Shown: positions 19,268 to 49,684 of the stretch, piece by piece
Layout of the letters: the number at the start of each line of letters is the position of its first letter
Position numbering within the stretch: position 1 is the stretch's first letter
From: Opitutia bacterium
Lineage (GTDB): Bacteria; Verrucomicrobiota; Verrucomicrobiia; Opitutales; Opitutaceae
Assembly (NCBI GenBank): GCA_016187925.1
Contig: JACPIS010000002.1
Coordinates: 1 to 64,000, forward strand
Direction of reading: 5' to 3'
Length of the DNA: 64,000 bases
Notes under the pieces: model-generated
Told to the model about the DNA's origin: nothing
Database searches by the model: none
What the model saw: only the letters and a program-made list of their open reading frames with translations
Program-made: the position numbers and the translations under genes

Positions 19268-20248
19268 ATGAGCAAAAAGAAACCGATGTATCTCCACCGC
19301 TCGAGCCACGGCCACCCGGCCCGGATCGCGCGGGGCTACGACAAGAAATTCAAGGTCCAGCCGACCTACCGCCAGTCGCTGCCCGACATGATGGAGGCCG
19401 CGCACGACGCCATCCAGGGCGCCAACGTGCCGATCCAGCAGGTGGGCATCCACAACTTCAAGCTGCCGCTGAAATACCGCACCAAGGGCGGCCAGATCCA
19501 CACGCTCGAGACCAGCGTCACCGGCACCGTCTCGCTCGAGGCCGAGCTGAAGGGCATCAACATGAGCCGCATCATGCGCACGTTCTACGAGCACAAGGGC
19601 GGCGTCATCACCGGCGAGTGGATGGGCAAGGTGCTCAAGAACTACCTGCGCAACGTCGACAGCAAGGACGCGCGCCTGAAGATCTCGTTCTCCTACCCGA
19701 TGCTGCGGCCCAGCCTGCGCAGCGGGCTCGAGGGCTGGCAGTTCTACGATGCCTCTTTCGAAGGCGTGATGACCCACACCGGCCGCTACCGGCGCTTCAT
19801 CCACTTCGACTTCGTCTACTCCTCCGCCTGCCCCTGCTCGGCCGAACTCTCCGAGCACGCCCGCGACCTGCGCGGCGCCTACACCGTGCCGCACTCGCAG
19901 CGCAGCAAGGCGCGCGTCACCGTCGAGGAGGCCGAGGGCAAGAAAATCTGGATCGAGGACATCCACCAGCACTGCCTCGACGCCCTGCACACCGAGACGC
20001 AGGTCATGGTCAAGCGCGAGGACGAGCAGGCCTTCGCCGAGCTCAACGGCGCCTACCTGAAGTTCGTCGAGGACGCCGCGCGCCTCCTCTACAAGGAGTT
20101 CGACGCCGACCGGCGCATCGCCGACTTCCGCATCGCCTGCACGCACCTCGAGTCGCTGCACTCGCACGACGCCGTCAGCGTCATCTGCAAGGGCGTGAAG
20201 GGCGGCTTCACCGCCGACTTCATGGACTTCGGCCAGCTGCTCTGCTGA
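19268..20248 (+). CDS. folE2: GTP cyclohydrolase FolE2 (type IB)
   Basis: 326 aa. It converts GTP to 7,8-dihydroneopterin triphosphate, the first step for folate, queuosine or biopterin. The active-site motif [14 protein letters not shown] (Cys188, Cys190) and GINMSRIMR (97-105) are typical of GCYH-IB. FolE2 replaces zinc-dependent FolE and is often used under zinc limitation; no zinc-repressor box is visible upstream. The ATG at 19268 follows PTPS closely, so they form one unit. Confidence 0.93.
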
Positions 20249-20259
20249 CCTGGAATTTT

Positions 20260-20695
20260 CCGCGGATGGCGCAGATGAACGCGGATAAGAACCGATGATA
20301 CACGAAGAGCTCAGCGGGAAGATCATCGGGGCGGCCATGACCGTGCTGAATGAACTCGGACCGGGGCTGGATGAGAAGCTTTATGAGCGGGCGTTAGTGA
20401 TCGAGCTGCGCCGGCGTGGCCACGGGGTCGAGCAGCAGAAGTCGTTTCCCGTGCATTACGCCGGTGAACTGATCGGCAATTTGGTGCCCGATACCATTGT
20501 TGACGGGCTGGTGATCGCCGATCCGAAGGTAGTGGAGACGTTCAGCGAGACGCACGTGCGCCAGATGATCGGCTACCTTGCCATCACCAAACTAAAGCTC
20601 GCACTCCTGTTGAATTTCAAACACGCCAAGCTGCAGTGGAAACGCATCGTCCGTGAGACCGAAAAATAATCCGCGTTCATCCGCGTCATCCGCGG
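20260..20695. mobile_element. GxxExxY cassette framed by 27-bp inverted repeats
   Basis: Left arm 20260-20286 and right arm 20669-20695 are inverted repeats matching at 25 of 27 positions (core ATCCGCGTTCATC...). Similarity extends outwards into an AT-rich hexamer on both sides. The arms themselves are built of a repeated ATCCGCG-type unit. The enclosed gene starts 8 bp inside the left arm, and its stop codon shares one base with the right arm. No transposase is present. Other copies of the arm sequence occur at 31397-31423, 31539-31565 and 40486-40512. Confidence 0.72.
20295..20669 (+). CDS. GxxExxY protein (PDDEXK-like fold)
   Basis: 124 aa of the GxxExxY family. The name motif reads G24-L-D-E27-K-L-Y30, followed by GHGVEQQKSFPVHYAG and a basic C-terminus (LLNFKHAKLQWKR). 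The family is assigned to the PD-(D/E)xK nuclease-like superfamily but has no proven activity. It fills the space between two inverted repeats exactly and interrupts the pterin cluster, which suggests it moves with the repeats. Lower GC than the neighbouring genes fits acquisition. Confidence 0.88.
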   Translation: MIHEELSGKIIGAAMTVLNELGPGLDEKLYERALVIELRRRGHGVEQQKSFPVHYAGELIGNLVPDTIVDGLVIADPKVVETFSETHVRQMIGYLAITKLKLALLLNFKHAKLQWKRIVRETEK

Positions 20696-21408
20696 GAAAA
20701 TCCGGCCCCGTCGCACTTGTCACCGGTGCCTCGCAGGGCATCGGGGCGGCCATCGCGAAAACGTTCGCGGCTGAGTTGCGCGGCGTCCGCCTCGCGCTGG
20801 TGGCGCGCAACGGGAAGAAACTGGCCGCGGTCGCGCGCGCCTGCGCGAAGCTGGGCGCCACGGCGGAGATCTTCCCGTGCGATGTGACCGATGAGGCCGC
20901 CGTGGACGCGCTGGCCCGGGCCGTGACGCAGCGCTTCGGCCACGTCGACGTGCTCATCAACAACGCCGGGGTCTTCGCGGGCGCGCCTTTCGCGGAGACG
21001 ACCGTCGCGCAGTTCGACCGCGTGGTCGCGGCGAGCCTGCGCAGCACGTTCCTAGTCTCGCAGGCGTTCGTGCCCGGCATGGTCCGGCGCCGGCGCGGCG
21101 ACGTGTTCAACATGTCTTCCATCGCCGGCCGGCAGGCTTATCCGGGCGGCGCGGCGTATTGCGCGGCGAAGTTCGGCGTCACCGGCCTGACGCAGGTCAT
21201 GCGCGCCGAGCTGAAGGACAAGGGCGTGCGCGTCTGCGGGGTGTTCCCCGGCGCCACGTGGACGCCGTCGTGGGAGCAATCCGGCTTCAAGGCGGAGCGC
21301 ATGATGCCCGCCGAGGACATCGCGCGCGCTATCCTCGATGTTTACCGGCTCAGCCGCCGCACCGTCGTCGAGGAGATCGTGCTCCGTCCGCAGCTGGGCG
21401 ACGTGTAG
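20653..21408 (+). CDS. Short-chain dehydrogenase/reductase, candidate pterin reductase
   Basis: 251 aa. The NAD(P) motif is TGASQGIG (24-31), then NNAG (103-106), Ser155/156, and the catalytic Y169-x3-K173 (YCAAK). The only start codon upstream of the Rossmann strand is the GTG at 20653, inside the GxxExxY gene. Residues about 5-15 are therefore encoded by the right inverted repeat. With FolE2 and an animal-type PTPS just upstream, a sepiapterin-reductase-like step is plausible, but SDR sequence alone does not fix the substrate. Confidence 0.8.
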   Translation: MRPKNNPRSSASSAGKSGPVALVTGASQGIGAAIAKTFAAELRGVRLALVARNGKKLAAVARACAKLGATAEIFPCDVTDEAAVDALARAVTQRFGHVDVLINNAGVFAGAPFAETTVAQFDRVVAASLRSTFLVSQAFVPGMVRRRRGDVFNMSSIAGRQAYPGGAAYCAAKFGVTGLTQVMRAELKDKGVRVCGVFPGATWTPSWEQSGFKAERMMPAEDIARAILDVYRLSRRTVVEEIVLRPQLGDV

Positions 21409-31396: not shown

Positions 31397-31565
31397 CCAC
31401 GGATTGCGCGGATGGGCACGGATGATGCGAGGCGGGATGCGGCGATCCCGCCCTACGGCAACCCGCTGACGCGAGAATGGGAGGGCTCAGCTCCCGCTGA
31501 GCCGCGGCCCACGGGGACGTGGGCCCTCCAGGAGATTTATCCGTGTTCATCCGTGTAATCCGTGG
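31397..31565. repeat. Gene-less inverted-repeat unit of the GxxExxY type, with nested hairpins
   Basis: Arms 31397-31423 and 31539-31565 are 27-bp inverted repeats (23 of 27 pairing; core ATCCGTGTTCATCCGTG) of the same type that frames the GxxExxY gene at 20.3 kb. The 115-bp interior has no ORF. It contains a GGCGGGAT...ATCCCGCC hairpin (31433-31452) and a 50-bp palindrome at 31480-31529 whose relatives are at 35515 and 44817. It fills the ruvB-murA spacer. Confidence 0.72.
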
Positions 31566-31577
31566 TCAAAAATGTTC

Positions 31578-48344: not shown

Positions 48345-49684
<1,340 letters not shown>

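Follow-up and report, generated by a model that had tools for sequence, protein, structure and literature searches.

A GxxExxY gene framed by heptad-triplet inverted repeats, and its likeness to RAYT-REPIN systems

RAYTs are IS200/IS605-related tyrosine enzymes, and their partner REPs are palindromic and headed by GT(A/G)G; the passages of PMC2817692 that treat these genes place them always between two inverted REPs, and REPINs appear in the corresponding passages of PMC3116915 as doublets of REPs in inverted orientation, linked to RAYTs that occur in single copy. The window (the whole stretch of DNA analysed, 64,000 nucleotides) carries a GxxExxY cassette resembling these systems, as those passages portray them, in having a small gene between two inverted repeat copies, gene-less inverted doublets of the same repeat dispersed outside genes, and a small number of gene copies that each have a repeat type of their own, with repeat and protein co-evolving. 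It differs in its enzyme, which is of the predicted PD-(D/E)XK type with no IS200/IS605-type Transposase_17 domain, and in its arms, which are heptad triplets of variable word with no palindromic GT(A/G)G-type head; slot-wise exchange of word and gene is a feature seen at the GxxExxY cassettes. By analogy, the GxxExxY system appears to work like RAYT-REPIN without being a member of it, and to stand closer to RAYT/REPIN than to an ordinary hopping insertion sequence.

There are also likenesses to MITEs and insertion sequences: gene-less elements bear the terminal repeats of the gene-bearing element, an internal-deletion derivative occupies the same site (L071), elements can be nested (L334), and some orthologous sites are empty (slot D in G002 and G011, slot B in G001; both slots are described below). 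Unlike these elements, GxxExxY has no transposase domain, words vary among the elements of one genome, and the gene sits at fixed slots across congeners; a plain insertion sequence was rejected on the absent transposase domain and the slots common to congeners. In a comparison by eye of filled and empty sites, which are diverged, no target-site duplication was recognised. Intervening sequences of 23S rRNA with an IVP are likewise one-gene inserts with complementary ends, but the IVP (PF05635) is of another protein family with another repeat format, and the GxxExxY slots examined lie between protein genes.

The window cassette and its protein

The cassette lies between folE2 and an SDR gene, with the following features:

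19268-20248, plus strand: folE2, the neighbour upstream of the cassette slot
20252-20286, plus strand: left arm, with its core at 20260-20286
20295-20669, plus strand: GxxExxY gene, 124 aa, predicted PD-(D/E)XK fold of Cas4/RecB-like type
20669-20703, minus strand: right arm, with its core at 20669-20695, overlapping the stop codon
20653-21408, plus strand: SDR, in a frame opening at a GTG within the 3' end of GxxExxY, the presumed start codon

The earlier note had described inverted arms that pair at 25 of 27 positions, begin 8 bp before the gene and overlap its stop codon, and these coordinates are confirmed: 20260-20286 (+) pairs with 20669-20695 (-) at 25/27 positions, the ATG of GxxExxY lies 8 bp past the end of the left arm, and the right arm begins on the final base of the stop codon. 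When extended, the arms (20252-20286 and 20669-20703) are 35 nt long and 89% complementary. The core of the left arm reads C followed by CGCGGAT (20261-20267), CGCAGAT (20270-20276) and CGCGGAT (20280-20286), separated by GG and GAA; that of the right arm reads ATCCGCG at 20669-20675, 20679-20685 and 20688-20694, separated by TTC and TC and closed by G, which on the minus strand is CCGCGGAT GA CGCGGAT GAA CGCGGAT, three direct heptads. Each arm of the cassette is composed of three heptad copies (C[AG]C plus four letters) with 2-3 bases between copies. The right arm would be read as the N-terminus of the SDR, with GTG 20653 probably the start codon used. In the congener G003, which is without the cassette, the SDR begins MKPVV as judged by eye.

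The protein matches TIGR04256 (E 2.4e-36; 124.6 bits against a cut-off of 35) and PF13366 PDDEXK_3 (E 4.6e-35; 120.9 bits against a cut-off of 22), and no other Pfam family at E <= 0.001, transposase domains and Transposase_17 included. Residues invariant in 25 diverse members include G24, E27, D66, K78, Q90, Y94, N107, F108 and R117, and position 76 is D or E (by eye, in the same 25 proteins); the window protein has D66, D76-x-K78, Q90 and Y94; we take this D..(D/E)xK..QxxxY layout to be that of RecB-type nucleases. The structure model has a pLDDT of 95.5 and its best-scoring structural matches are largely PD-(D/E)XK nucleases, the closest by Z being 4ic1 (SSO0001, presumably a Cas4 protein; Z 9.4, 101 residues aligned, rmsd 3.5). 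Foldseek E-values are weak, with LHK-Exo as the top match (E 1.2e-3) and tRNA-splicing endonucleases among the weaker-scoring ones. A sequence search of the PDB gave no solved relative and one spurious hit (E 0.66). GxxExxY is predicted, from profile and model, to belong to the PD-(D/E)XK superfamily with a Cas4/RecB-like fold and to be a putative nuclease; it would share the fold and the D, (D/E)xK and QxxxY residues of the Cas4/RecB family (SSO0001, lambda-type exonucleases, AddAB), and differs from it in being only about 120 aa long.

A transmissible phage or plasmid gene was considered and rejected: tblastn with a single protein (L118), which may miss distant members, gave no match among 50,697 phage records; among 72,556 plasmid records it gave eight, each on a plasmid predicted to be non-mobilizable.

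Arms, words and slots of other GxxExxY genes

The genome that contains the window has four GxxExxY genes, all between inverted arms of the window style. Each has its own word, namely CGCGGAT (window), CACGAAA (C17), CACTAAT (C44) and CACAGAG (C38), the last with less clean arms that score 24, below the threshold of 26. We scored arms by comparing the reverse complement of the 150 bp upstream with the 150 bp downstream (SW score >= 26) in a genus sample, which comprises all 41 GxxExxY places listed in 13 congeneric genomes (12 of which have the gene), and in a phylum sample of 90 loci, taken from near the top of the matches listed for 240 genomes, some near contig ends being passed over; with L044 and L177 set aside for their short flanks, 129 of 131 loci were scored. 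The arms are general: 105 of the 129 loci pass (33/40 in the genus, 72/89 in the phylum) and 24 fall under the threshold; the background rate is 1.9% for distal flank pairs (n = 618) and 2.6% for random placements (n = 346). An alternative null made by pairing arms of different elements has its 95% point at 31, higher because elements share format and words. A stricter heptad-triplet test (score 16, reached by 2.0% of null sides) is passed on both sides by 55/129 loci and on at least one side by 81/129.

Outside the phylum, 64 of the 76 loci with enough flank pass the arm test and 12 do not (null 1/280), these loci being the best 80 of at least 592 candidates picked through one peptide of one subgroup. 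They come from Acidobacteria, Chloroflexi, Planctomycetes, Bacteroidia, Proteobacteria, archaea and others; two of three archaeal loci pass, and the sole cyanobacterial locus fails. The earlier note had named a general lack of such arms around GxxExxY genes in relatives as grounds for refutation; they generally do have them, in the genus, in the phylum and, among those best 80 of at least 592 candidates, elsewhere. Its observation was right and is more general than first supposed. A chance inverted repeat was ruled out by the reversed, null and placement controls, and a lone insertion peculiar to this genome by the generality of the arms. Other arm formats (e.g. ATCCTGT repeats) occur beside some GxxExxY proteins. 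Two open frames of about 280 aa in G174 (C31:15547-16290 and C43:115252-115989) each hold two PF13366 matches and are apparent tandem-domain GxxExxY proteins; no arms were found around one domain of each.

The commonest downstream-arm heptad has the form wwwwGYG, repeated three times, and the word is readable in 113 of 205 loci. The word detector rewards equal words and GYG, so these are not independent findings, and leaves positions 2 and 3 unscored. Position 1 of the 113 readable words is C in 65, T in 28 and A in 20, position 2 is T in 107, and position 3 is C in 79 and T in 31. Spacers of 2-3 bases give a period of 9-10 bp, about one helix turn. Within an arm, words agree at 0.84, a figure biased upward by the detector's preference for equal words, and spacer letters at 0.35, which is unbiased (102 elements with a readable word).

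The word varies between elements and tracks the clade of the GxxExxY protein. The tree used here, in which alignment columns are few relative to rows, comprises 101 proteins after exclusion of one short protein and of 11 loci with another format. On it, word position 1 requires 8 changes, against a mean of 36.7 and a minimum of 31 in 500 shufflings, and the whole four-letter word 37 changes against 58.2 (minimum 54); position 6 carries little clade signal (17 changes against 21.7, minimum 16). Such agreement could arise from the linkage of gene and arm alone, without recognition.

Many cassettes in the genus occupy orthologous slots, and at three slots, whose contents in congeners were read by eye, the elements lie where one gene ends and its neighbour begins. 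At the folE2-SDR junction the window genome has the full cassette and G002 the same cassette with an internal deletion (a relic, L071), and G011 and G009 have gene-less doublets with the word CACGAAA. In G003, G010 and G004 the junction contains an inverted element that likewise lacks a gene but is of a different format, the AAGCTCCAA type. Another ORF precedes the SDR in G007, G005 has another ORF with the SDR out of view, and the SDR is not adjacent to folE2 in G006 and G008. The earlier note had also named a fixed and ancient insertion across the family as grounds for refutation; the insertion is not fixed. A clear folE2 is found in 11 genomes of the genus, and of these the window genome and one congener alone have the insertion. 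The earlier note stated that folE2 and the SDR would be adjacent without the cassette, and proposed looking for empty loci: five congeners have no GxxExxY gene, or any other gene, between the two, though each of the five has a gene-less inverted element there.

Slot B, which we take from protein motifs to be the gatA-gatB junction, contains GxxExxY genes in G000, G008, G010 and G009 and gene-less doublets in G005 and G006 (CACGAAA), G007 (CACGGAA), G002 (CACGAAA/CACAAAG) and G012 (GGAG-type); G004 has the other format found at the folE2-SDR junction, G001 an empty site, and G011 and G003 are unreadable. Slot D has an ATTCGTG cassette in G005, G007 and G008 and an ATCTGTG cassette in G012, is empty in G002 and G011, where stop and start codons overlap or are one base apart, and has another palindrome in G000. 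In G010 it is 35 bp long and includes AACGAAA/TTTCGTT, a 7-bp palindrome and possible remnant of an element. Two side observations concern this slot: in G004 (L334) an inverted-repeat element is nested within another of different format, and the GTG of the last heptad may, by eye, be the start of the next gene.

The best case for a cassette changed as a unit, gene and word together, is the pair L036/L039, in which the flanks are 92-97% identical, the genes 64%, and the words different; L030/L061 is similar, with L061 truncated, and no exchange was seen in L043/L055 and the other slot pairs. The genes are under purifying selection, with dN/dS of 0.03-0.10 in 12 of 14 gene pairs with finite dS (dS is near saturation in most). 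The description of the cassette as a minimal mobile unit in the earlier note is too simple given the slots that several cassettes keep across congeners, the purifying selection and the mostly gene-less repeats.

Gene-less repeats

Gene-less copies of the repeat are found elsewhere in the window:

31397-31565: gene-less inverted doublet, word CACGGAT, with arms at 31397-31423 (plus strand) and 31539-31565 (minus strand), preceding an ORF that starts at 31572
49055-49081, plus strand: single arm, word CACGAAA, as in the C17 cassette of the same genome
51845-51872, minus strand: single arm, word CACTAAT, as in the C44 cassette of the same genome

The window doublet encloses another repeat, GGCTCAGCTCCCGCTG.GCCGCGGCCC...GGGCCCTCCAGG (about 31484-31532), which recurs at L012 (about 1430-1485).

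The window-arm sequence itself, with up to three mismatches, occurs at 12 sites in its genome (reversed control 0). A strict pattern of the repeat (CCACDRADN{2,3}CRCDRADN{2,3}CRCDRAD) finds 54 sites in this genome and 11-113 in each of 11 other congeners, with none for the reversed control in all 13; G001 (74% complete), the single congener without a GxxExxY gene, has no strict sites. Across the phylum, at least one strict site is present in 130 of 138 gene-bearing and 17 of 102 gene-lacking genomes (Fisher P 1.3e-37, inflated by relatedness of the genomes), a cross-tabulation made by hand in which 82 gene-lacking genomes are known from the tally alone; the reversed pattern matches 11 times, in nine of the 240 genomes. 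The contrast recurs within genera (e.g. in g27, where G063 has three genes and 13 sites and nearly all others have none). The 17 genomes with sites and no detected gene include G203 (42 sites), G127 (26) and G153 (21), and eight gene-bearing genomes are without the strict pattern, e.g. G233 with four genes and no sites. Genomes reached from other loci (the best 80 of at least 592 candidates) have sites in 26 of 29 gene-bearing cases, with two control hits in the 29, and a Methanosarcinales archaeon genome has 63 strict sites.

In three congeners, for which 150 of 155 sites were used, 23 of 25 neighbouring site pairs (<=250 bp) are doublets of the form CCAC..GTGG, and many strict sites have no strict partner inside 250 bp. 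In G251, G257 and G274 (the genomes of L199, L208 and L259) doublets are oriented the other way (GTGG..CCAC), their starts lying about 40-46 bp from each other, and are apparently tied to particular words.

The words of gene-less sites partly match those of the resident genes, with a mean match of 0.44 against 0.23 in permuted genomes (P 0.0035, 14 genomes, of which G102 and G116 are of one genus). Gene words were chosen by hand in this comparison, genes without a readable word and G002 were excluded, and gene-flanking sites were removed by hand from the listed sites (48 in the window genome). The match is uneven: 41 of 48 gene-less words match a gene word in the window genome and 1 of 15 in G156, and none do among the listed sites of G136, G177 and G024.

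Possible roles of GxxExxY

The reading we favour, at a probability of about 0.58, is a partnership of the RAYT-REPIN kind in which the enzyme is instead a PD-(D/E)XK nuclease, unrelated to RAYTs, that would recognise the word and maintain or spread the repeats. From the observation that the arms belong to the gene we infer the further steps: word binding, cutting, and cutting-driven insertion or exchange by GxxExxY. The putative nuclease would recognise all three copies of the heptad word in an arm, which share a face of the helix, and would act on the cassette that encodes it and, in trans, on gene-less doublets and single arms that carry its word. Cleavage would let a cassette or doublet be copied or moved into gene junctions, where new cassettes might enter empty junctions or replace a resident element, gene and word together, and because they would be replaced together, protein and word would change as a unit. 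The repeats would in this way be maintained and occasionally spread at junctions, much as is proposed for REPINs and their RAYT transposases. Several points count against this reading. Dispersed word-intact copies would also be targets, so that free cutting would be suicidal, and cutting would have to be restricted, e.g. to single-stranded or hairpin DNA; in addition, some loci fall under the arm threshold (24/129 and 12/76), sites and gene occur apart in 17 and eight genomes, the gene-less words of G136, G177, G024 and mostly G156 match no gene word, and the reversed-pattern controls are not all zero. The suggestion of the earlier note that GxxExxY acts on the repeats gains from the co-occurrence, the agreement of word and clade and the partly matching gene-less words, which are consistent with such action and leave it an interpretation.

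Other relations of gene and repeat would account for part of these data. Another enzyme may move the repeat family, with GxxExxY a stable cargo between two arms; the mostly gene-less repeats (54 sites and four genes in the window genome) and the presence of repeats in 17/102 gene-lacking genomes would fit this, as would the 23S_IVP genes of the window genome, which are likewise between short-word inverted repeats, so that several genes may share such frames. The co-occurrence of gene and repeats (130/138 versus 17/102) and the tracking of GxxExxY clade by word argue otherwise, the repeat format of the IVP genes differs, and one nuclease family in archaea and many bacterial phyla is not expected of mere cargo, so we regard this as unlikely. 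A homing-like process, in which cassettes are slot alleles whose nuclease attacks chromosomes that have a different word or no element at the junction and is copied in by repair, leaving scattered arms as by-products, would explain different gene-word pairs at orthologous slots with similar flanks (L036/L039, and L030/L061 with its truncated member) and the empty sites of slots B and D. It is nonetheless improbable, as it leaves unexplained the tens of gene-less sites per genome, many of them one-orientation doublets in the genus, and the presence at a single slot of gene-less elements whose words differ.

The 35-nt complementarity of the arms, the location of elements between a gene end and the next gene start at the three slots examined, and the weak-scoring tRNA-splicing endonucleases in the Foldseek list would suit a role in RNA, with the arms forming a long transcript stem, like that of 23S rRNA intervening sequences, that serves as a processing site, insulator or attenuator and GxxExxY acting on RNA or being incidental. 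A stem has no need of triplicated heptads, whose words agree far better than their spacers (0.84 and 0.35, by a detector that favours equal words), many sites are without a strict partner within 250 bp, and the 9-10 bp spacing suits duplex DNA; we consider this very unlikely. The words could also be chromosome-wide DNA signals, Chi-like marks of repair or recombination for a RecB-family nuclease that would be autoregulated through the arms beside its gene, as the RecB/Cas4-like predicted fold with its D..(D/E)xK..QxxxY residues and the tens of word copies per genome might suggest. This is highly improbable, for the copy number is low and very uneven among congeners (0 to 113), and neither inverted pairing around the gene nor exchange of words would be expected of such marks.

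No description of a link between GxxExxY and repeats was found in the literature, in open-access PMC text, and six repeat strings had no match in that text. With the partnership reading, GxxExxY, a widespread family of so far obscure role, gains a concrete candidate substrate, and a widespread class of genomic repeats a candidate enzyme; as the putative target adjoins the gene and varies, binding specificity would be readable across many natural protein-word pairs. Were this reading true, these pairs would be a ready-made recognition code, the RAYT-REPIN way of life would have arisen more than once with unrelated enzymes, and the remodelling of operon junctions, displaced start codons included, would be partly explained. 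More tentatively, and at somewhat less than even odds, GxxExxY may form a second independent system of REPIN-RAYT type in Bacteria and Archaea, built on a minimal Cas4-like nuclease whose specificity is spelled in the adjacent arms, with word switching as a competition of alleles and the IVP genes as a third system.

It is possible that the IVP genes and their repeats are a parallel system. The window genome has nine matches to the four-helix-bundle 23S_rRNA_IVP family (PF05635) among short-word inverted repeats of another format (e.g. CTTTCAACTTTCAAC, CGTTGAACGTTGAAAGTT), and of the IVP loci L017-L024 (C46, C44, C43, C17, C5, C12 and C30), 3/8 reach the arm score of 26.
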